A stretch of DNA of 48,694 bases. Origin: a virus. Both the position numbers and the translations under genes were made by a program. The DNA lies in the IMG/VR virus record IMGVR_UViG_3300044712_000766, positions 1-48,694 of that record. The stretch is one strand, 5' to 3'. Under the pieces are notes generated by a model, which was not told the origin of the DNA, made no database searches, and saw nothing but the letters and a program-made list of their open reading frames with translations. Numbering within the stretch: position 1 is the stretch's first letter; every line of letters starts with the position of its first letter. Positions 2,835-27,423 of the stretch are shown here, one piece after another.

Positions 2835-4009
2835 CAGATCGGCCTCACAGGCGGGCAACTGCCCAGCTTCCAATCCACGAACAGTAGGCGCGGACCGTGT
2901 TTCCGCAGTAGCTCAACGCACCGTTTGACATCCGCAACACTCCGCAGCACCACGCACCCCGCACTACCCGGCGCCACACCGTGGTTCTCGTCGTAGTGGA
3001 TCCCGATAGCGCTTCGCTCCGTCTTCCCCGGCGCCTGGTAGTTCAAACCCACCCACACCGGCCCCAGCCCCGGCCCCCAGCTCCCGCTGTAGTTATCCCG
3101 TCCGTTGGCCCACTCAATGTCCTCCACGCCCCAGCGGCCCTCCGGCAGCGGCTCCATGCTCTGCGCCCTGCTGTCCCGCCCCCTGCGGAAGCTCTGCCGC
3201 CCCGGCGCCCCGCTCACCACCAGCAGGTTCGCCATCGGGATGCTGTTCACCACAAACTCCAGCTTCAGCAGCTCAAGGCCTCGTGCATCAACCTGCCCCG
3301 TCCGCATCAGCGTCATGTGATTGGGCAACCTCACCGGCTGCTGGGCAGGAACCTGCAACTGAGGCAGCCCCTTCCCTGTCCAGAGATCCCCTTCCGCCTT
3401 CCGCCGCCGCCTCAGCCCTGCCTCCACGCTCGTCCCAGGGTTCACATACAGCAGCAGCGCTTCTGGCACCCTCTCGAACTGGGCATCCTGCACCCTAGCC
3501 GTGATCGTCGAAAACCCCTGGCCGCCATACCAGTTCGGGCCCACGTTGTACGTGAAGCTCAGTAACGCTGCCTGCTGGTTCGCCCGCATCGCCCCCCAGG
3601 TCGGCACCATCTTGGCAAGGTGCTTCTCATCACGCCGCACCCGCACCGCCAGCAGCTCATCCGCCTGCGCCTGCGTCACCGTGTCCCCGGGCTTCACACG
3701 CTGCCCATTGAGATAGGCGGTCGAGCCCCAGCCGATCGTCCACGGCTCACCGCCCGTCCCAGGATCCGGATACGCCTGCAGCTTGCACCCCTCAAACTCC
3801 CTGATCAGCGGTAGCGCCAGCGCCACGGCATCCGGTGCCACAACCGGCGCCGCAGGACTCCCCGCCGCACGCCACAGCTCGGTGAACTGCTGCCGCTGGG
3901 CATCCGTCAGCCCTTGATCCAGCGCGGTCAGTGCCGCAAGCTGATGCGGGGTGATCCTCCCCGTCCGCGCCACATGCTCCGCTGCAGCCCTTACAGACGC
4001 GAAAGTCAT
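2834..4009 (-). CDS. Endolysin: GH24 lysozyme fused to a YkuD-like L,D-transpeptidase domain
   Basis: A 391-residue protein in three parts. Residues 1-55 are a short helical module. Residues 62-225 are a T4-type lysozyme (GH24) with the E-D-T pattern at E73, D82 and T91, and the conserved N-Q-AALLSFTYNVG helix. Residues 230-385 look like a YkuD-type L,D-transpeptidase or related fold: a conserved His in IGIHYDEN (near 338) and the SAGC nucleophile motif (349-352). The start overlaps the upstream gene stop (4006-4009, ATGA). It would cut or remodel peptidoglycan at lysis. Whether the second domain is catalytic is an inference. Confidence 0.85.
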   Translation of the reverse strand: MTFASVRAAAEHVARTGRITPHQLAALTALDQGLTDAQRQQFTELWRAAGSPAAPVVAPDAVALALPLIREFEGCKLQAYPDPGTGGEPWTIGWGSTAYLNGQRVKPGDTVTQAQADELLAVRVRRDEKHLAKMVPTWGAMRANQQAALLSFTYNVGPNWYGGQGFSTITARVQDAQFERVPEALLLYVNPGTSVEAGLRRRRKAEGDLWTGKGLPQLQVPAQQPVRLPNHMTLMRTGQVDARGLELLKLEFVVNSIPMANLLVVSGAPGRQSFRRGRDSRAQSMEPLPEGRWGVEDIEWANGRDNYSGSWGPGLGPVWVGLNYQAPGKTERSAIGIHYDENHGVAPGSAGCVVLRSVADVKRCVELLRKHGPRLLFVDWKLGSCPPVRPI

Positions 4010-4221
4010 CGGTCGTCATCGTTCAGAACGTTTGTCGCCAGTGCCAGCGCATTAGTCGCCAGCCCGGCCCATGCACCTGCCGCCATGTCCCTCGCCTCCC
4101 GGCACGCCTCGCCGCCGTCGTTGCCCATGCAGCTCAGCCAGTCCGCTGAATACACCCCCGCCCCTATCGCAAAGCCCGCCAGGCACGTCAGGAGGGCACC
4201 AGTGATCAGTCGGTAGCGCAT
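4006..4221 (-). CDS. Small membrane protein of the lysis cassette (holin or spanin candidate)
   Basis: A 71-residue protein beginning MRYRLITGALLTCLAGFAIG, with one clear N-terminal hydrophobic helix, two cysteines that follow, and an acidic C-terminus (NDDDR). It is immediately upstream of and coupled to the endolysin gene. The late-gene element GGCAAGCTAGG lies 18 bases before the start, which supports this ATG over earlier in-frame ones. A role in lysis is inferred from position and topology only. Confidence 0.65.
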   Translation of the reverse strand: MRYRLITGALLTCLAGFAIGAGVYSADWLSCMGNDGGEACREARDMAAGAWAGLATNALALATNVLNDDDR

Positions 4222-4239
4222 CGCATGATCGGCGGTCCC

Positions 4240-4250
4240 CCTAGCTTGCC
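4240..4250 (-). promoter_or_regulatory. Late-gene upstream element (GGCAAGCTAGG)
   Basis: Minus-strand copy of the repeated element, 18 bases before the ATG at 4221. Confidence 0.5.
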
Positions 4251-4303
4251 CATCCGCAACATGGGCTAACATACGGCCATAACGCTGCCGTGATAACGTC
4301 GGG

Positions 4304-4636
4304 ATGGCCTGCCGCGATGTCATCGACTCCCGCGTGGACGAAGTCATGGCAGCTCTTGCCATTGGCAAAAACCGCAATACCACCGCGCTCGTCAGAAAGC
4401 TGTCGGACAAGTGGGGGGTCTCCACTCGCCAGGTTGAGCGCTATTTGAGAGTGGCCCGCGCTCGCCTGCGCCGCTCTTGGGATGAGCAAGGCCCCGATAT
4501 GGCCGCTCTTGTCTTTGAGGCATACACAGACCTCTATCGGCACTCCATGGAAAACACCAAGGAGCCGCACCAGATCCAGAACGCCCGCGCCATCCTTGAC
4601 CGTATGACGGCACTTGCTGGCCTCACGGGCACCTGA
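4304..4636 (+). CDS. terS: Terminase small subunit
   Basis: A 110-residue protein directly upstream of the large subunit and overlapping it by one base (TGATG). The N-terminal half carries a helix-turn-helix-like segment (TALVRKLSDKWGVSTRQVERYL, within residues 27-48) followed by basic ARARLRRSW, as in small terminases that recognise the packaging site. The C-terminal helix (QIQNARAILDRMTAL) fits an oligomerisation segment. The assignment rests on size, the helix-turn-helix and gene order. Confidence 0.8.
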   Translation: MACRDVIDSRVDEVMAALAIGKNRNTTALVRKLSDKWGVSTRQVERYLRVARARLRRSWDEQGPDMAALVFEAYTDLYRHSMENTKEPHQIQNARAILDRMTALAGLTGT

Positions 4637-5997
4637 TGGGGATCCTCAGCAAGCGGGAGGGTTCCATCCTTGTTCGCCCGGGTGATTCTGGCGGCCCCAC
4701 CTACCAGGGCACCCGCGAGGAGCTGCTGGCCAAGATGCGTGACCGTCTCCACGGCGGGCAGAAAGACCTCTTTGACGACGACGATTCCGACGAGATCGGC
4801 GTAGTCGCAGGCTACGGCTCGGGCAAGACCACGGCCGACTGCTACAAGGCCATTAAGCTGTGCCTCCTGAACCCTGGCTGCGTCGGTGGCGTGCTGGAGC
4901 CCACCAACAGCATGGTGGATGAAATCTGGCTGCCCAAGTTCGAGGAGGTCATGGAGAGCCTCGGCATCCCCTACGACTTCTACCGGGGCCGCAACACCCC
5001 TCAGCACACCCTCCACCTGCCCGGTGGCGTGACTTCGGTGGTGGTGGCCCGGTCCTTTGAGAACTACCGCCGCATCGTCGGCATGGACTGGGCATGGGCC
5101 ATCGGGGATGAGGTGGACACCGTGAAGACCGCCGAAGCGTTCAAGGCATACAAGAAGATCCTGGGCCGGATCAGGGCCGGGCAGGTGCGGCAGAAGATCA
5201 TGACCAGCACGCCGGAGGGCTTTGGCTTTCATTACCAGATGTTCGGTAGCGATGAGGCGGCTGCTGTCCCTGGGCGCCGGCTGATCAGGATGCGGTCGGA
5301 CGACAACCCGCACCTGCCGGCGGACTACTTCGAGCAGATGGAGCGGAACTACACCGCCGAGGAGCTGCGGGCATACCGGGATGGCGTCTACCAGAACCTG
5401 CTGACCGGCAGCGTCTGGTATAAGTTCGATCGCGCCAAGCACGTCAGGCCGGTGGAGTTTGACCCCACCGATGGCGAGACGCTGATCCTTGGCTGCGACT
5501 TCAACATCGGCAACACCAACGGCATCGTCATGGTCAAGCGGGGGCCGGTCATGCTGACCATTGACGAGATCCGCACGCACGACACCGAGCAGTTGTGCCA
5601 GGAGGTGCGCCGCCGCTACCCCCATGCCACCATCCACGGCTACCCGGATGCCTCAGGGGCTAACAGGAGCACCAACAGCACCCGCAGCGACACGAACATC
5701 CTCGCGGAGTACGGGATTGGCAACTACAGCCCCAAGGCGAACCCCCCTGTAAGGGATCGTGTGGCGGTGGGCAATAGCAGGCTTGAGAACGGCAAGGGCG
5801 AGGTCAACATCGTGATCGACCCACGCTGTAAGGGGCTGATCCAGGACCTGGAGCGCCAGTGCTACGACGAGAAGGGCGAGCCGGACAAGACGAACGGGAA
5901 CGATCACCGGCCCGAGGCATGGAGCTACCCGCTGCATCGGATCTTCTCGGCGGGCAAGCCGCTGGCGGGGCCGGTGCGCTCGGTTAGGGTGTACTGA
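4636..5997 (+). CDS. terL: Terminase large subunit
   Basis: A 453-residue packaging motor. Walker A AGYGSGKT is at residues 58-65, Walker B WAIGDEVD at about 154-161, and a coupling motif TSTPEG at about 190. The C-terminal RNaseH-like nuclease has acidic residues in GCDFNIG (D288), GYPDASG (D338) and a third D/H cluster near 424. It would dock on the portal and pump DNA while cutting concatemers. The last eight residues, PVRSVRVY, recur at the end of the next gene. Confidence 0.95.
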   Translation: MGILSKREGSILVRPGDSGGPTYQGTREELLAKMRDRLHGGQKDLFDDDDSDEIGVVAGYGSGKTTADCYKAIKLCLLNPGCVGGVLEPTNSMVDEIWLPKFEEVMESLGIPYDFYRGRNTPQHTLHLPGGVTSVVVARSFENYRRIVGMDWAWAIGDEVDTVKTAEAFKAYKKILGRIRAGQVRQKIMTSTPEGFGFHYQMFGSDEAAAVPGRRLIRMRSDDNPHLPADYFEQMERNYTAEELRAYRDGVYQNLLTGSVWYKFDRAKHVRPVEFDPTDGETLILGCDFNIGNTNGIVMVKRGPVMLTIDEIRTHDTEQLCQEVRRRYPHATIHGYPDASGANRSTNSTRSDTNILAEYGIGNYSPKANPPVRDRVAVGNSRLENGKGEVNIVIDPRCKGLIQDLERQCYDEKGEPDKTNGNDHRPEAWSYPLHRIFSAGKPLAGPVRSVRVY

Positions 5998-6545: not shown

Positions 6546-6610
6546 CGGCCTCCGATGCCGTTGCCAACCTGCAGCGGTGGTAGCCTGCTGCTGTGCTCCG
6601 CACCTGGCCC

Positions 6611-7003
6611 ATGGCCCAGTTCTTCGTCGGTGTGGAGGCAGCCCTTGCTGAGCTGCTGGAGCGCACCGACCGCATCGAAACCATCCTGGAGGATTCCGTG
6701 GCTTCATTTGAAATGGCCGTCGAGGCCCTGATCGACTACACCCGCAGCCTGAAGGAGGAGAACGCCCTCCTGAAGGCCGACGATGAGGCCGATGCTGCTG
6801 CCCTGGCGGCTGCTGAGGCGAAGGTGGCTGAGGCTGAGGCCGGCTTTGCTGCTGCCAAGGCCGAGCTTGCTGCCGATGGCGCCGAGGAGGACCGGCTCTT
6901 TGGGCTGATTCAGGAGGTGCTGCCCACCCCGCCTGTGGAGGAGGAGGAGCCTGTGGTTGGTGACCCCATCCCCGAGCCCCCGGCTGAGCCTGCTGCCGAG
7001 TGA
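6611..7003 (+). CDS. Coiled-coil protein with acidic Pro-rich tail
   Basis: A 130-residue protein. Residues 15-100 form a long Ala/Glu/Leu-rich coiled coil, followed by a tail rich in Pro and Glu (PPVEEEEPV and PEPPAEPAAE). The composition would fit a scaffold-like or spacer protein, but a second scaffold candidate exists at 10392. It overlaps the next gene by one base (TGATG). Function not assigned. Confidence 0.7.
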   Translation: MAQFFVGVEAALAELLERTDRIETILEDSVASFEMAVEALIDYTRSLKEENALLKADDEADAAALAAAEAKVAEAEAGFAAAKAELAADGAEEDRLFGLIQEVLPTPPVEEEEPVVGDPIPEPPAEPAAE

Positions 7004-7908: not shown

Positions 7909-9447
7909 ATGACGTATTCCTACGGCACCGATAAAGCACGCCTCAACGCGCATCCCAGCACTGCCCGCACCCTTGAGGTCTGGCAGCCGGGGCAAGTGTG
8001 GGAGCGGATGGCCCCACGCTGGGAGCTTCCTGAGGCTTTGGCCGCTGGCACCATCTACCTGCAGCAGCAGGGTGAGCGGTGGCTGCCCAGGGAGCCCGAG
8101 GAGCAGGATGCCTCCTATGCCGTGCGTTTGGGCAACAGCATGTGCCCGCCGTACATGCTGCGGCTGGAGAACATGCTCGCTGGCCTGCTGTGCCGTCAGG
8201 CGATCCGGCTGGAGGACGTGCCAGATGTCATTCGTGAGCACATGTTCAACGTTGACTTACAGGGCAACGACTTGGACGCTTGGCTTTACGGCACGGCAAA
8301 GAAGATGATCCGTTACGGGCATATTGGCACGTTGGTAGATATGCCACGCGATGGCGAGGATGTAGACGCTCGCCCTTACTGGATCTCCTACACGCCTAGA
8401 GACATCCTTGGTTTTCAGCCTGCGATGGCAGGTGGCAGTCAGCGTATTGTTGAGCTTCGGTTACAAGAGGAGATCATTCTTCCTTACGACCCGTCTAACG
8501 GTTCAAGCACGGCACGCTATGGCGAGGAAGCGGCAACCCAGATCCGGGTGCTGCGGCCCGGCAGCTTTGAGCTATGGCGCAGCAAGGGCGGCAGAACGCT
8601 TGATTTCAACATGGTGGACTCTGGCCCCACCACCCTGCAGCAGATCCCCTTTGCCGTTGCGTATGCCAATCGCGTGGGGCTGCTCGAGAGCGTCCCGGCG
8701 CTGGAGGAGGTGGCATGGCTGAACTTGGCGGCCTACCGGCGGACCAGCGACCTGGCGAACCAGCTCCACATCGCGGCGGTGCCCCGTCAGTTCGTGTTCG
8801 GTCTGCCGGGTGAGACCGAAAGCATCACCGTTGGCCCCAGCTTCGCCACGGCGCTGCCGGTTGATGCTCGGGTGGAGTTCTCAGAACCTGCTGGTACTAG
8901 CTACCAGTACCAGTTCCAGCATCTGGAGCTGCTCGAGAAGCAGATCAAGGAGCTGGGCCTTGCCACCGTCCATGGTGAGAAGGCCGTGGCCGAGTCGGGC
9001 CAGAGCAAGGAGATCAGCCGCAGCCAAGGCGACGGCACCCTGATGAGCATCGCCCTACAACTGCAGGACATGATCGACTCTGCCCTCCGCTTCCATGGGG
9101 AGTATCTGGGCCTGGCGCCTGACGCTGTGGGCCGGTGCATGGTCAACACCGAGTTCACTGAGGTCACGCTGGATGCCACCGTGGGCAAGTTCCTCCACGA
9201 ACTGCGGACGGCTGGCGACATCACCCAGGAGACGATGCTGATCAGCCTCGCCGCACGCAAGGCGTTCTATGACGACTTCGACGTAGACCGCGAGCTTGAG
9301 GAGACCGCGCAGCAGCAGGCGGAGATGCAGGCGCAGCGGGAGGAGGAGCTGAAAATGATGATGGAGGCGCAGGGGCAGCCTGTTGCAAATGCCAAACCGC
9401 CTGCTGCGGCTGGGCAACCTAAGGCATCTCCCCAGCCCCCTGTTTAG
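7909..9447 (+). CDS. Portal protein, DUF4055 type
   Basis: A 512-residue protein matching the DUF4055 portal family in length, order and motifs: an N-terminal helical region (LRLENMLAGLL), a GHIGTLVDMP segment with RPYW, an aromatic RPYWISYTPRDILGF core, a central QIPFAVAYANR-GLLE stretch, then a long stem helix and a C-terminal coiled coil (EETAQQQAEMQAQREEELK). The dodecameric portal forms the DNA channel and docks terminase. It starts directly after a perfect late-gene element. Confidence 0.88.
   Translation: MTYSYGTDKARLNAHPSTARTLEVWQPGQVWERMAPRWELPEALAAGTIYLQQQGERWLPREPEEQDASYAVRLGNSMCPPYMLRLENMLAGLLCRQAIRLEDVPDVIREHMFNVDLQGNDLDAWLYGTAKKMIRYGHIGTLVDMPRDGEDVDARPYWISYTPRDILGFQPAMAGGSQRIVELRLQEEIILPYDPSNGSSTARYGEEAATQIRVLRPGSFELWRSKGGRTLDFNMVDSGPTTLQQIPFAVAYANRVGLLESVPALEEVAWLNLAAYRRTSDLANQLHIAAVPRQFVFGLPGETESITVGPSFATALPVDARVEFSEPAGTSYQYQFQHLELLEKQIKELGLATVHGEKAVAESGQSKEISRSQGDGTLMSIALQLQDMIDSALRFHGEYLGLAPDAVGRCMVNTEFTEVTLDATVGKFLHELRTAGDITQETMLISLAARKAFYDDFDVDRELEETAQQQAEMQAQREEELKMMMEAQGQPVANAKPPAAAGQPKASPQPPV
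9413..9425 (+). promoter_or_regulatory. Late-gene upstream element (GGCAACCTAAGGC)
   Basis: Lies inside the portal 3' end, 24 bases before the ATG at 9450. Confidence 0.5.
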
Positions 9448-9449
9448 TC

Positions 9450-9824
9450 ATGGCTCGCAACTACAAACGCGACGCACGCGGACGCTTCTCCAGTGGAGGT
9501 GGTGGCGGTTCGTCCGGCGGTGGTGGCAGGAAAGCTGCTGGGAGTGGCGCCAAGGCTGCGGCAACCAGAGCCGCCAACAAGGCTGTTACCGACAGGATCA
9601 ACGCCACTGGGCAGACAGGGCAAGGCGGACGACTTTTTAAGAAAACCGCCGCCAAGTTCAGCGGCACCAAGGCTACTCAGCGCAGCAGGGCGCAAGACCT
9701 GGCGCGGACTGACCGGAATGATCAAGTTTCAAGGTTCGGTAGCCGCAAGGGCACCGTCACCAAGAAAGGCAAAGTCAAGCGCACCCGTGATCAAATCCTG
9801 GCTTCTATGAATCGGGGAAAGTAG
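9450..9824 (+). CDS. Basic Gly-rich protein with RDARGRF N-terminal module; zero-frame product of a -1 frameshift pair
   Basis: A 124-residue protein opening MARNYKRDARGRFSSGGGGG, then a Lys/Arg/Ala-rich region. The opening module recurs in two other proteins of this genome (13067 and 17479). The gene ends CGG GGA AAG TAG: the heptamer GGGAAAG (9815-9821) touches the stop codon and is phased as G-GGA-AAG, the lambda G/GT slippery site. A -1 shift there would extend the protein to about 301 residues. A minor head protein is the likeliest role, given its place between portal and scaffold. Confidence 0.8.
   Translation: MARNYKRDARGRFSSGGGGGSSGGGGRKAAGSGAKAAATRAANKAVTDRINATGQTGQGGRLFKKTAAKFSGTKATQRSRAQDLARTDRNDQVSRFGSRKGTVTKKGKVKRTRDQILASMNRGK
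9815..9821 (+). promoter_or_regulatory. Putative -1 ribosomal frameshift site (GGGAAAG)
   Basis: GGGAAAG is in the zero frame as G-GGA-AAG and is followed at once by TAG. Downstream sequence is strongly GC-rich with the palindrome GGTCCCGGGACC (9829-9840), which may help stall ribosomes. The -1 frame is open from 9791 to 10354 and has no ATG, GTG or TTG before 10007. Confidence 0.7.
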
Positions 9825-10354
9825 CGGCGGTCCCGGGACCTTCGGGCGCAGGCAATAGCATCCGCCCTACAGGCCGTCCGGGGCCGCGCAACAGCATCCG
9901 TCCCTATCGCCCTGCCACCGTCCAGGGCGTAGACCTTCAGATCGACCGCCAGGCAAGGGCAGGCATTGAGCGCATCAAAGGCGCTGGTGAGCGGCTGCGC
10001 GATGAGATGAGCAAGGCCAAGCCGAAGCTCAACCGGATGAAGGCCAAGCTGGAGCGTGACAATGCCCGCGCCATCATTGACCGTGGCAAGAAGGGCATTG
10101 ATGGGGAGATCGCCCGGATCGAGATCGGCACGATCGGCACCAACATGGGCCGCAAGGCCATCCAACGCCGGCTGGCCCGTGCTGCTGAGGGCATCAAGCG
10201 CGGCAGCAAGGCGGCACAGAAGGCGCAAAGCATCTACATGAACCAGCTTGCTGGGGGCTGGCCGAAGGGCTCCAGCAAGGGGAAGAACAACGTGAAGCCA
10301 GGGCCGAGGAATACGGCGCCGCCGCCGAAGCGGAAGCGGAAGAAGAAGCAGTAG
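9821..10354 (+). CDS. Frameshift extension: basic helical protein domain
   Basis: Reading -1 relative to the 9450 gene gives 177 residues from 9821. They start VAAVPGPSGAGNSIRP and contain the peptide NSIRP twice, then a helical Lys/Arg-rich region (MSKAKPKLNRMKAKLE onward) and a PPPKRKRKKKQ end. The part before the first ATG (10007) has no start codon but is coding-like, so fusion to the upstream frame is the simplest reading. Separate initiation at 10007 (115 residues) remains possible. The strongly basic nature suggests contact with DNA inside the head. Confidence 0.7.
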   Translation, partial: VAAVPGPSGAGNSIRPTGRPGPRNSIRPYRPATVQGVDLQIDRQARAGIERIKGAGERLRDEMSKAKPKLNRMKAKLERDNARAIIDRGKKGIDGEIARIEIGTIGTNMGRKAIQRRLARAAEGIKRGSKAAQKAQSIYMNQLAGGWPKGSSKGKNNVKPGPRNTAPPPKRKRKKKQ

Positions 10355-10362
10355 GGGAGCGG

Positions 10363-10368
10363 TATAAT
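10363..10368 (+). promoter_or_regulatory. TATAAT -10-like hexamer before the scaffold gene
   Basis: TATAAT stands 24 bases before the ATG at 10392, just after the preceding stop. There is no matching -35 hexamer at the usual distance. Confidence 0.35.
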
Positions 10369-10391
10369 GATGGCGTTGTAGTAACGCTGCC

Positions 10392-11090
10392 ATGCCCCCC
10401 GAAGATCAGGAACTCACGCCGCCTGCTGTGTCGGCAGAGGAGGCGCGGGCAGAGGTCGAGCGTCTGCGGGCGAAGAACAAGGAGCTGCTGGACGAGAAGG
10501 CACGGCTCAAAGAAAAGGTGCGTTCCATCCCTGAGGGGGTTGATGTTGATGAGCTGCTGCGGTTTAAGCAGGAGACCGAGCGTCAGCAGCTTGAGAGCAA
10601 GGGCGATTACGACAAGGCTCGGCAAGCTCTGCAGGAGCAGTACGACCGTGACATCAAGGCCCGTGATGCGCGGATTGCTGAGCTTGAGGCCAAGGTGCGC
10701 GACCTTGAGCTGATCACCCCTGCCGCGTCGGTTCTGGCCCAAGTGGTGCATGAGCCGCAAGACGTGTTTGCCACCGGCAGGCTGAAGCCCGAGATGATCG
10801 AGCCCGGCGATGATGGCCCGGTGGTGGTCGAGGGGCTGGCAAGGGTGCCGCTGGCTGAGTGGGCAAAGCAAAAGCTGCCGGCCTACATGCTCAAGGCACC
10901 GAAGCCGCAGGGGACTGGAGCGCCTGCAGGTGGCAGCGGAGCGGTGGCCAGTGACCTTGTGGCTGGGATGAAAAACCCGTTTACGCGGGAGCACTTCAAC
11001 CTTGGGGAACAGGAACGCCTGTTCCAGTCAAACCCTGCGCTGTATCAGCAGCTTCTGGCCGCCGCGAAAGCGGCTATGCCACGCGGGTAA
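10392..11090 (+). CDS. Scaffolding protein
   Basis: A 232-residue protein directly before the major capsid gene. Residues 18-115 are a charged coiled coil (AEVERLRAKNKELLDEK and onward), then a Gly/Pro/Ala linker, and the C-terminus has the NPFTREHFNLGEQERLFQSNP motif typical of scaffold/pre-capsid proteins of HK97-like and T7-like phages. The scaffold would guide coat assembly and leave before packaging. No protease domain is visible. Confidence 0.82.
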   Translation: MPPEDQELTPPAVSAEEARAEVERLRAKNKELLDEKARLKEKVRSIPEGVDVDELLRFKQETERQQLESKGDYDKARQALQEQYDRDIKARDARIAELEAKVRDLELITPAASVLAQVVHEPQDVFATGRLKPEMIEPGDDGPVVVEGLARVPLAEWAKQKLPAYMLKAPKPQGTGAPAGGSGAVASDLVAGMKNPFTREHFNLGEQERLFQSNPALYQQLLAAAKAAMPRG

Positions 11091-11191: not shown

Positions 11192-12277
11192 ATGGCCTTT
11201 CTGTATCGGTCTGATACTCAGATCCTCAACCCGTTCAGTGAGTACATCTCTGAACAGACCACCCTTCGCTCCCGTTTCATCACCTCCGGCCTGGTCGATA
11301 CCAGCCCGGTGATCACCGAAAACATCCGCAAGGGCGACACCTTCCAGATCCCTAATTGGGCCGCCAACCTTCAGGGCGCCGTCCAGGTGCCCGCTGAGGG
11401 CGTGATGCTGGATGTCAACAAGCTGGGCAGCAACATCCAGCGCGGCGTTGTGCATCACCGGGCCAATGCTTGGGGCGCCTCCGAGCTGGCCAAGCTCGCC
11501 GTTGGCGCTGCTAACGACCCCATGGCTGCCATCGGCGCCAAGGTGGCCGACTGGGTGGCCAACAGCCAGCAGGCAGACCTCCTCGCCACCCTGCGGGGCC
11601 TCTACGGCATCCCTGGCACCTCGGTGTCCGGCTATGCCATGGCCAGCATGGTGATCGACGGTGCCGGCTCTGGCGAGACCGACTTCAGCGTGTCCCACGT
11701 CGTCCGTGGTGACCTGCGCCTCGGGGAGGATGCTGATGCCTACGGCATCCTGATCATCCACCCGGACGTTAATGCCTTCCTGAAGATCAGGGAGATGATC
11801 AACTACGTCCGCGCTGGTGAGCTTCCTGGCATCACTGCCTCCACCATCGCCGCAGGCAGCATCACTGCTTCCAACGCGGTGTTTGGTGACAGCTCCGACC
11901 AGTTTGAGACCAACGACAAGCTGGTCCCGACCTTCGCCGGCAAGCGGGTGATCGTCTCGGATGATGCCCCCCGCACTGGCTCGCCCGGTTCCTACCGCTA
12001 CATGAGCTATCTGGCTAAGCCCGGCGCCATTGGCCTCGGCTTCCAGGCTCCTGTCCGCACTGAGTCGGACCGGGACATCCTGACCAGCGGCGGTGAGGAC
12101 GTGCTCAAGGTTCAGTGGGACTGCTGTATGCACCTGCTGGGCTCCAACTATGCCGGCCCGACCGGCAGTGGCGTCCCGACCGCGACCGACCTGGCTGCTG
12201 CCGGAAGTTGGACCAAGGTGTTCAACGACAAGAACATCCCCATGGTTGGGATCGTTCACACCTGCCCCGTTTTCTGA
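11192..12277 (+). CDS. Major capsid protein
   Basis: A 361-residue protein starting MAFLYRSDTQILNPFSEYI. The order after portal and scaffold, the length, the KGDTFQIPNWAA segment, the helical ANSQQADLLATLRGLYG stretch, and the C-terminal IVHTCPVF all fit an HK97-fold coat protein. The 100-base gap before it holds an inverted repeat GCTAAC-CATTGC-GTTAGC region (11115-11131) and a TTGCAG hexamer at 11094, so the gene may have its own promoter. Confidence 0.85.
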   Translation: MAFLYRSDTQILNPFSEYISEQTTLRSRFITSGLVDTSPVITENIRKGDTFQIPNWAANLQGAVQVPAEGVMLDVNKLGSNIQRGVVHHRANAWGASELAKLAVGAANDPMAAIGAKVADWVANSQQADLLATLRGLYGIPGTSVSGYAMASMVIDGAGSGETDFSVSHVVRGDLRLGEDADAYGILIIHPDVNAFLKIREMINYVRAGELPGITASTIAAGSITASNAVFGDSSDQFETNDKLVPTFAGKRVIVSDDAPRTGSPGSYRYMSYLAKPGAIGLGFQAPVRTESDRDILTSGGEDVLKVQWDCCMHLLGSNYAGPTGSGVPTATDLAAAGSWTKVFNDKNIPMVGIVHTCPVF

Positions 12278-18649: not shown

Positions 18650-20485
18650 ATGGCGGAAACACTTGGCCAGGCGGTGCTAGAGGTTGGGGTCGATGACTCC
18701 AGGCTCCGCGCTGGGCTGGCAGGAGTTGAGGGTCAGGTCCGGCGGACCAGCAGTGTCATCGGTGAGCTGGGCGGGCTGATTGCGGGCATCGGCGCCATCA
18801 CGGCGTTCGGTGGGCTCATCAATGCCGCCAGCGAGCTGGAGAGCATCACCCGCCGGCTGGCGAACACGCTGGGCGATCAGGGGGCGCAGCAGGCGCTGGG
18901 CTTCACGCGGGAGCTGTCGGACCGGCTCGGGCTGAGCTTTACGGTGCTGTCGGATTCGTTTGCGGCCTTCACTGCGGCGGCCTCGGCGGCGAACATCCCG
19001 CTACAGGAGCAGCAGGGCCTGTTTGAGGCGGTGAGTACGTCCGCGCAGCGGCTGGGGCTGAGCAATGACGCCATCAACGGAAGCCTCCTTGCGCTGCAGC
19101 AGGTGGCGGCCAAGGGCACCGTGCAGATGGAGGAGCTGCGGGGGCAGCTCGGGGAACGGCTGCCTACGGCGTTCGCCGCCACAGCAAGGGGCCTTGGGAT
19201 CAGCAATAAGGAGCTGATCAAGCTGGTGGAGTCCGGCCAGCTCACGGCGGACCAGTTCTTCCCTGCGCTGACCAAGGGCCTGACAGAGCTGAATGGCAGC
19301 GGCCCGGCTGGGGTACCCACTGCGGCGCAGAACTTCGCCTCATTGCAAAACGTCCTCAGGACGTTGCAGGCCGACTTCGGCAAGGAGTTCCTGCCCGGCG
19401 TGGTGGCGGGCACCCAAAAGATCGCAGAGTTTTTGCAGGGATTCACAGCCAATCAACGGGCCGCCGACCTAAGCGGCGCCTTCGGCTTCGGCCCAAGGGA
19501 AGCGCAGCAGCTCGTTGGGCAGCTTGATTTTGTTGAGAAGAAGTTTGGCCTCACGCGGGAGCAATCAAAGAACATCGTCAGCGATGCGCTCAAGATCATC
19601 AGCGACTCCCGTGACGAGTTTGATCCCCTTCTTAACAGCTTTGGCCAGCTCACCCTTACCGGTGATGAGTACGTCAAAGTGCTGGGCCTCATTGAGGAAC
19701 GCAGTAAGTCGTTCACGGCTCCGGCCCGTGCTCTGCGGGATCTGGAGCAGCAGCAGATTGCAAACGCAAGGGCTGAACAGCAAGCGTCGGACCGCCGACT
19801 GGACACCCTCGACAAGATTAACGCCCGGCTGAAAACGGCGCGCAAAGAACTAGGCAGCCTTGACCCAAATAGTGCCGACGCACAGGCCAAGCGTGAGGAG
19901 ATCGCCAACCTTGAGACACAAGGCAAAAGTGTTGAGGAGCGGTCTAGGGCGATTCAGAAAGCTGTCGAGGATGCGGCCCGCAAATCCAAGGAGGTGGCGG
20001 ACAACTTCCAGAAGGCGGCGGATGCGGTGAAAACCACGGCTCAGAGCTTTGCCGAGACGGTGGCCAGCTCGCGGTTTGCCAGCGAGTCGGCCCAGCGCCA
20101 GGCCAGGGACACGCTGGAGCGCCGCGCTGCGGAGACTCTGAACTCTGGGGCCGTGAACCGTGACGCGGTGGCCCGTGAATTTGGGCTGCCCATCGCGCAG
20201 GCCGGGAGCCTGAGCATCGAGGGCGGTGGACAGTCCTTCCAGCGCAGCTTTACCAACCAAGTGGCGCCGCTGGATCTTCGCGGCTTGGGCCTTGACAAGC
20301 TGGCCGAGTTGGTGCAGCAGACAGCGCCGCTGGCCGATGGCGCCAAATCAATTCAGGAGAGCAACAGTGAGCTGGTTAAGGCCACCCAGGAGTTGACCGC
20401 AGCGCAGCGGGCAGCACTTGAGCGCGAGTCGAACCTCGCCATCACCGTGCCCGTAGGTGCCACGCGCAACGTGTACCTGCCATGA
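18650..20485 (+). CDS. Tail tape measure protein
   Basis: A 611-residue protein. The N-terminus (LGQAVLEVGVDDSRLRAGLAG) is typical of tape measures. Residues 60-230 match the conserved tape measure core (QALGFTRELSDRLGLSF, VQMEELRGQLGERLP, TADQFFPALTKGL). A long charged coiled coil follows around residues 360-470. At about 1.5 angstrom per residue the tail would be near 90 nm. The stop overlaps the next ATG (20482-20485). Confidence 0.9.
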   Translation: MAETLGQAVLEVGVDDSRLRAGLAGVEGQVRRTSSVIGELGGLIAGIGAITAFGGLINAASELESITRRLANTLGDQGAQQALGFTRELSDRLGLSFTVLSDSFAAFTAAASAANIPLQEQQGLFEAVSTSAQRLGLSNDAINGSLLALQQVAAKGTVQMEELRGQLGERLPTAFAATARGLGISNKELIKLVESGQLTADQFFPALTKGLTELNGSGPAGVPTAAQNFASLQNVLRTLQADFGKEFLPGVVAGTQKIAEFLQGFTANQRAADLSGAFGFGPREAQQLVGQLDFVEKKFGLTREQSKNIVSDALKIISDSRDEFDPLLNSFGQLTLTGDEYVKVLGLIEERSKSFTAPARALRDLEQQQIANARAEQQASDRRLDTLDKINARLKTARKELGSLDPNSADAQAKREEIANLETQGKSVEERSRAIQKAVEDAARKSKEVADNFQKAADAVKTTAQSFAETVASSRFASESAQRQARDTLERRAAETLNSGAVNRDAVAREFGLPIAQAGSLSIEGGGQSFQRSFTNQVAPLDLRGLGLDKLAELVQQTAPLADGAKSIQESNSELVKATQELTAAQRAALERESNLAITVPVGATRNVYLP

Positions 20486-26137: not shown

Positions 26138-26295
26138 CGCAAGACACCATCTTGCAGAATGAAGCGGCATTGCTTGACCTGCTGAACCGTGCCGATGCGG
26201 TTCAGCAAGCGAACAGGCTCAGCCAACTGCGTCGGGAACAGGAACGGCGTACGCTGGAGCGCATTGAGCGCACCTCTGTAAACGATGCTGTATAA
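26134..26295 (+). CDS. Small coiled-coil protein
   Basis: A 53-residue protein with a GTG start overlapping the upstream stop. It is one amphipathic helix (VTQDTILQNEAALLDLL at the start) containing ANRLSQLRREQERR, similar to the coiled coil of the 25013 protein. It overlaps the next gene by 11 bases. Possibly a partner that zips with the larger protein. Confidence 0.6.
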   Translation: MTQDTILQNEAALLDLLNRADAVQQANRLSQLRREQERRTLERIERTSVNDAV

Positions 26296-26848
26296 GCAGC
26301 CCCCGGCGGCCCCGCAGACGCGGCTGATCGGTAACGAGCGGGTGGGCATCATCGAGGTGCCGGTGCTGGGCGGGCTGACGATCGAGGAGGATGAGACCAT
26401 TGCCGAGATCACCGACGCGGCCAATGACGTGGTGGTGTTGGCATCGCAGAAGGCGCAGGCAATAGCACTGGCGGAGAAGATCAGCGATCTGGAGGCTTAC
26501 CGGATCATTGAGGACAGCGTGTTTCACCGGACGCTGGAGGAAGCCGCGCATGGCATCGCGATTCGGCACGCGGAGGCCATTGCAGCGGTGGGGGCGGCGT
26601 ATAAGGAGATGGGCACCCTGCGGCGGCGGGCAACCGTGACGGCAATCCTGCGGCACCGGCTGGGGGAGCAGGAGATCCCGGCAGGCTTCCCGAGGGTTCT
26701 GTTTGACGCCTTGGCGCAGCTCGCTGAGGAGGAGCAGGCAGCGGAGAAGCTGCCGAGTGAGCCGCTCACGGCCGAGGCGCTGGGAAAGCCGCCAGAGGCC
26801 AGGGCAAGCGGGAAAAGACGGACTGGAGCGCGAAGTTCTGGGAGTTAG
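26285..26848 (+). CDS. Tail assembly chaperone-like protein, zero-frame product of a -1 frameshift pair
   Basis: A 187-residue protein. The strand-rich N-terminus (ERVGIIEVPVLGGLTIEEDE) and helical middle with VTAILRHRLGEQE look like cytosolic tail chaperones of siphophages. The heptamer GGGAAAG (26782-26788) is phased as G-GGA-AAG, 58 bases before the zero-frame stop. A -1 shift joins the next frame and gives about 379 residues. The location downstream of the tape measure is unlike the lambda order, where G/GT come before it. Confidence 0.75.
   Translation: MLYKQPPAAPQTRLIGNERVGIIEVPVLGGLTIEEDETIAEITDAANDVVVLASQKAQAIALAEKISDLEAYRIIEDSVFHRTLEEAAHGIAIRHAEAIAAVGAAYKEMGTLRRRATVTAILRHRLGEQEIPAGFPRVLFDALAQLAEEEQAAEKLPSEPLTAEALGKPPEARASGKRRTGARSSGS
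26782..26788 (+). promoter_or_regulatory. Putative -1 ribosomal frameshift site (GGGAAAG)
   Basis: Identical to the lambda G/GT heptamer and to the one at 9815, and in the correct phase (G-GGA-AAG). The -1 frame is open from 26761 to 27423 but has no start codon until TTG 26896, while its sequence from 26788 reads as plausible protein. Confidence 0.75.
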
Positions 26849-27423
26849 CTCACGCGTACCCGGGCCAGTTTGACCGGGCGACGTTTAGGAAGGAGTTGCG
26901 GGCCGATGTGATCCGGGCGCTGCAGACACTGGCCAAGATCCGCCGGCAACAGGCGCATCTGGCGGAGGTGCCGATTGTGCGTGCCTGGGCCTCGTGGCTG
27001 AATGGCTACCGGAAGGAGGGCACCCCGCCGATCGAGATCGCAGAGCTGTATGCGTTCGGGGAGCCGAAGGCGGCAAGGATCAGTGCGGAGGTGGCAGCCG
27101 TTGTGATGGAGTTGCAGCACGAGCAGAAAGCCCACCCGCTGCTGCTGACGGTGTGGGATGACGTGACCAAGGCCGCGAGCGAGCACCAGAAGGTGCCGGA
27201 GGTGAGGGCCCTGCGGAGCGATGACCAGACGGTGTGGATCGTGGCGCCGAAGTGGGAGGGCGGGGCGTGCCGGGGCGGGCTTGTGGCGGTGGGGACGCAG
27301 GTGAGCGGTGAGGTGCTGGTGCGCGACATGGATCGCCCGCTGCTGACTTATCGGGTGGTGCTGCCGGAGCGTCAGGGCTGCGGGTGGGTGGCGACGGGGG
27401 AACTGCTGGCGGCGGCAACCTAG
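26788..27423 (+). CDS. Frameshift extension of the chaperone-like protein
   Basis: After the shift the product continues with AARGQGKREKTDWSAKFWEL and AHAYPGQFDRATFRKEL, a W/F-P-x-F arrangement like the C-terminal parts of tail assembly chaperones. The helical RALQTLAKIRRQQAHLAEVP segment and then a beta-rich domain (TVWIVAPKW, RPLLTYRVVLPER) follow. Independent initiation at TTG 26896 is possible but would leave conserved-looking residues untranslated. Confidence 0.7.
   Translation, partial: AARGQGKREKTDWSAKFWELAHAYPGQFDRATFRKELRADVIRALQTLAKIRRQQAHLAEVPIVRAWASWLNGYRKEGTPPIEIAELYAFGEPKAARISAEVAAVVMELQHEQKAHPLLLTVWDDVTKAASEHQKVPEVRALRSDDQTVWIVAPKWEGGACRGGLVAVGTQVSGEVLVRDMDRPLLTYRVVLPERQGCGWVATGELLAAAT

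Follow-up and report, generated by a model that had tools for sequence, protein, structure and literature searches.

How is a long coding frame expressed that has no start codon of its own where it begins? This question was raised by a locus in a viral DNA of 48,694 nucleotides (IMG/VR record IMGVR_UViG_3300044712_000766, hereafter the window), in which the ORF starting at 9450 ends within a -1 frame that stays open far beyond its stop codon. The original prediction took the heptamer GGGAAAG at 9815-9821 to be a programmed -1 ribosomal frameshift site. Judged from the sequence evidence below, this reading is very probably correct; it is supported by the same site in a second genome, by relatives with a continuous ORF, by selection ahead of any start codon, and by a scan in which the locus stood alone among 122 cases.

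Frame arrangement of the locus

The 3′ end of the 9450 ORF reads ATG AAT CGG GGA AAG TAG, and the 34-base overlap of the 0 and -1 frames contains the in-phase GGGAAAG beside the stop (Table 1). The first ATG, GTG or TTG of the -1 frame is ATG 10007, 216 bases into the open stretch, and the -1 frame product carries two copies of NSIRP. Joining the 124 residues of the first frame to the 177 of the second gives a predicted fusion of 301 aa. The original prediction had described the ORF end with its phased heptamer touching the stop, the open -1 frame with its repeated NSIRP and startless first 216 bases, and a roughly 301-residue fusion encoded between portal and scaffold; all of these were confirmed, the last by PHROG matches of the neighboring genes. 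The nearest relatives of the terminase are those of Synechococcus and Prochlorococcus siphoviruses (45-50% identity), and the host is therefore likely to be cyanobacterial.

Table 1. Coordinates of the features discussed; positions refer to the window unless a relative is named.
Feature	Position	Strand	Remarks
Portal gene, upstream neighbor	7909-9447		phrog_145, E 4e-86
0-frame ORF	9450..9824	+	124 aa, ATG start; N-terminal MARNYKRDARGRF tag, Gly-rich stretch, basic body
-1 frame open stretch	9791..10354	+	stop codon 10352-10354
Putative slippery heptamer GGGAAAG, phase G_GGA_AAG	9815..9821	+	in phase; kept in L004 at 6609-6615
Predicted fusion part of the -1 frame	9821-10351	+	177 aa; NSIRP repeats, long predicted helix
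0-frame stop TAG	9822..9824	+	adjoins heptamer; same arrangement in L004
Possible stimulatory stem	9824..9889	+	9824-9836 pairs with 9878-9889; folding from 9822
Scaffold gene, downstream neighbor	10392-11090		phrog_206, E 1e-25
Major head protein gene, after scaffold	11192-12277		phrog_247; separate from the 9450 ORF
Second in-phase GGGAAAG	26782-26788		within ORF 26285-26848; -1 frame open 26761-27423
RDxRGRF tags, window	9468, 13085	+
RDxRGRF tag, window	17467	-
RDxRGRF tags, L002	3869, 4688, 7498
RDxRGRF tags, L028	1517, 3576, 3939
RDxRGRF tags, L029	5894, 6601
RDxRGRF tags, L035	2695, 8984

In the proposed mechanism, most ribosomes would stop at TAG 9822 and release the tagged basic protein of 124 aa. 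Some ribosomes, whose Gly and Lys tRNAs occupy GGA AAG, would shift one base backwards onto GGG AAA and read on from GTA 9821 to 10351, giving the 301-aa protein with the NSIRP/helical domain as a C-terminal extension. Both forms would be wanted, and they could co-assemble through their shared N-terminus during head assembly. That slippage occurs, and at what rate, we infer from the arrangement of the site, and the long form would presumably be a minor fraction. Readthrough of the TAG was rejected because the 0 frame closes again after 35 codons.

The nature of the protein was examined through family searches and structure prediction. No PHROG was found for either half, nor any meaningful match in Pfam or NCBIfam. 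The AlphaFold model, of low confidence (mean pLDDT 62, pTM 0.25), contains a long predicted helix in the -1 part. A weak PDB profile match of a helical stretch to a Mediator subunit (E 0.008) was taken as chance. From position and charge, our guess is that the short and long forms serve in assembling the head or are packaged inside it; with no family matched, the label "head-interior protein" is likewise guesswork, drawn from where the gene lies and how basic its product is.

We then asked how unusual the site is within the window. As a bare string, GGGAAAG is not rare, with 5 occurrences observed on both strands versus 5.4 expected. It is found in phase at two sites only, 9815 and 26782, in the 7509 codons of 20 chosen ORFs. 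Both strands were scanned for stop codons that end an ORF of at least 60 codons and fall within an open -1 frame continuing for at least 60 codons, and 122 such cases were obtained (64 on the plus and 58 on the minus strand). An in-phase X_XXY_YYZ heptamer occurred in 9 of the 122, and the first 40 codons were free of start codons in 13; only one case, 9450-9824, combined both features.

Relatives of the locus and selection on the -1 frame

Among relatives that have the domain, the closest is L004 (IMG/VR 3300042876_000267), in which TAG also follows directly after GGGAAAG. Downstream of the site its DNA is 84% identical to the window over 531 bases without gaps. The 0-frame proteins are largely different (239 aa in L004 versus 124 aa in the window): they share the tag and the Gly-rich part and then hardly align until the final CGG GGA AAG TAG, with dS of 1.6 over 117 aligned codons. 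Retention of the heptamer despite this divergent C-terminal part fits a kept signal, although the heptamer may merely have been inherited along with the downstream module. Opposite ATG 10007, L004 has the triplet GTC, and its -1 frame offers no start before 6813; hence no start is common to the two genomes.

Comparison of the two genomes also revealed selection on the part of the second frame that precedes any start codon. The window and L004 are separated by 28 substitutions over 9821-10006, with 4, 8 and 16 at the first, second and third codon positions of the -1 frame. In the 62 codons before ATG 10007, 9 residues were changed versus 18.0 expected when the same substitutions were placed at random, and none of the 5000 random placements gave so low a number. 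The dN/dS ratio was 0.25 over 9821-10006 and 0.21 over 10007-10351, compared with 0.16 for the portal gene and 0.16 for the scaffold gene. Purifying selection thus acts on these 62 codons as read in the -1 frame. Furthermore, the pre-start peptide alone matches the continuous proteins of L001 (76% over 33 aa) and L002 (53% over 47 aa). The dN/dS of 0.25 and these matches bear out the original impression that the -1 frame looks coding. Because the substitutions are constrained and the peptide matches L001 and L002, the pre-start stretch appears to be translated in the -1 frame without a standard start, for which slippage at the heptamer would be the simplest route. The locus combines an in-phase X_XXY_YYZ heptamer within a frame overlap with a coding second frame that lacks a conserved usable start, two of the features by which a frameshift site is recognized.

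To place the window among its relatives, the -1 product was searched against 14 whole records (11 virus contigs and 3 named cyanophages). Seven matched; the other seven, several of which are fragments, gave no match. Among the matched records the split form was found in G001 (L004) alone. A single continuous ORF, consisting of the RDxRGRF tag, a linker and the NSIRP domain, is present in G004 (L001, 273 aa), G005 (L002, 228 aa) and G011 (L062), and the start of such an ORF, interrupted by the contig end, in G006 (L066). The N-terminus of the window's 0-frame protein resembles the start of the continuous L002 protein (two-sequence comparison, E 1e-5). In the remaining two records, G002 (L022) and G003 (L003), the tagged first domain is absent and the second is present only in shortened form, starting at an ATG of its own. 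This shortened domain (HAIRPYRPAT...) lies at 1500-1800 in L003 and at 5520-5800 in L022.

Scans of IMG/VR and genome_contigs found no split form beyond the window and L004, two genomes in total, and no record in which the two halves occupy separate frames but the heptamer is missing; the genome_contigs scans gave no relative. Among named phages (50,697 phage records), tblastn with the -1 product and the L001, L002 and 13067 proteins gave no match. The original prediction had called for an alignment of relatives, and the one split-frame relative found (1/1) keeps GGGAAAG-TAG and does not have the window's internal start. It had also named two kinds of relative that would speak against it. No relative was found that had lost the heptamer while both frames stayed intact. 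As for an own start in the second frame, L003 and L022 do have one, yet they do not amount to such relatives because the tagged first domain is absent from them.

Alternative explanations and a candidate stimulatory stem

The two halves might instead be separate genes, with re-initiation on the second, either from ATG 10007 or from a non-standard codon, coupled to termination at TAG 9822. The window does contain this ATG, ATC, ATT and CTG codons occur in the pre-start stretch of both the window and L004, and the own ATG of the shortened domain in L003 and L022 also agrees with separate genes. However, ATG 10007 is replaced by GTC in L004, and a start there would discard the 62 selected codons common to the continuous relatives and would cut the long helix predicted in the low-confidence model; we regard separate genes as improbable. 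The continuous form in relatives is also what would be expected of a decayed gene, in which the loss of one base interrupted the ORF and ended production of the downstream half as part of a fusion. The downstream half is nevertheless open and constrained, with dN/dS of 0.25 and 0.21 versus 0.16 for portal and scaffold, and the same split occurs in two clearly different viruses, making decay very unlikely.

An error of sequencing or assembly in the G4A3 run of a truly continuous gene is suggested by the homopolymer-like nature of this run, but it is scarcely credible given that the separate assembly of another virus has the same sequence (one exact 17-base match, the L004 contig). Transcriptional slippage on GGGGAAA, giving mixed products in place of ribosomal slippage, would yield identical proteins. 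It usually needs A/T runs of about nine, compared with which GGGGAAA is short, and the heptamer stands in exact ribosomal phase; its probability is practically negligible.

Ribosomal slippage at GGGAAAG may be assisted by a downstream stem at 9824-9889, for which the support is weak. Between the window and L004 its 12 outer pairs are identical, whereas 4 of the remaining 11 are disrupted. Its local energy ranked 2 of 574 for the window and 1 of 473 for L004 at the more favorable of two offsets, and 6 of 574 and 23 of 473 at the other. This first impression of a strong hairpin was cut down by two null models. Against dinucleotide shuffles the z values were -1.57 and -0.60, which are not significant; under a synonymous-codon null, 48 and 55 of 1000 sequences reached the observed energy at the best of three offsets (about 5%), and 135-251 of 1000 did so at the remaining offsets. 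No strong structure was seen at the corresponding position of L001, and L002 has some, though its continuous ORF needs no frameshift. No Shine-Dalgarno-like stimulator was seen by eye upstream of the heptamer.

Known frameshift systems, the tail gene pair and the shared tag

The slippery heptamer of lambda G/GT is GGGAAAG, identical to the one found here, and gene 10 of T7 is also frameshifted. According to PMC5009743, the lambda tail-assembly chaperone gpG/gpGT is made as a short and a long product by a -1 frameshift, phage A2 has a -1 frameshift in its major head protein gene, and PSA has +1 frameshifts in capsid and tail genes. Like gpG/gpGT as described there, the window products would arise from a -1 slip shortly before the first gene ends and have a common N-terminus. 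Unlike G/GT, the window gene lies between portal and scaffold and not in a tail module beside the tape measure or major tail protein, its stop touches the heptamer, and its product is basic and Gly-rich, is not a tail chaperone and showed no sequence kinship to the lambda proteins; moreover, a distinct G/GT-like pair lies elsewhere in this phage, at 26285-27423. With A2, PSA and T7 gene 10, the window shares a head-module gene that would give a second, longer protein by frameshifting; those phages extend the major capsid protein, whereas the window would extend an unrelated protein and has a separate major capsid gene.

T4-like tail chaperones are encoded by a short gene and a separate fused long gene without a frameshift, and genes that occur fused in one genome but split in another are frameshift candidates (PMC10885494). 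L002 has a similar layout: beside the fused long ORF at 3851-4537 it carries a second, short ORF with the tag at 4688, perhaps a two-gene route to the short and long forms that the window would obtain, with a shared N-terminal tag, by slippage. The L002 pair differs from the T4-like one in lying in the head region and belonging to another protein family.

Frameshifting at -1 is well known from tail genes and seldom seen at a head position between portal and scaffold; our literature search, outside which most subscription papers lay, found no title on a frameshift at this position. It is conceivable, if rather doubtful, that the locus is a head-module counterpart of gpG/gpGT, in which a fixed short-to-long ratio set by slippage steers the assembly of portal or scaffold or helps to load a basic protein into the head, and for which relatives use a fused gene plus a separate short tagged gene. 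If the proposed slippage at 9815-9821 is real, frameshifting would determine in what proportion two forms of a head-region protein, neither major capsid protein nor tail chaperone, are made, in a virus whose tail genes also appear to rely on this heptamer. The fused single-gene relatives would offer a natural comparison for why two forms are needed. At such a locus, gene callers would miss the second domain or assign it a false start at 10007.

The second in-phase GGGAAAG lies in the 26285-27423 pair, which from its layout looks like the usual G/GT tail-chaperone pair; it had no family or phage match. Its -1 product was matched in 6 of the 14 whole records, with GGGAAAG in phase in five of them (L054-L058) and not in L059. 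This second site suggests that host ribosomes slip on GGGAAAG. Folding of the six sequences gave no structure common to them at the tail heptamer. The pair comes after a tape-measure-like gene (18650-20485), an unusual order.

The RDxRGRF tag, with near variants, is followed by a Gly-rich stretch and heads several otherwise different basic proteins of these phages (Table 1); it may be a shared assembly or packaging tag. Just 5′ of the scaffold start, a leader, GGTATAATGATGnCGTTGTAG, is found in the window (~10361-10382), L028 (~5179) and L027 (~4886). It is kept in these three genomes even with a truncated upstream gene and could be an extended -10 promoter.
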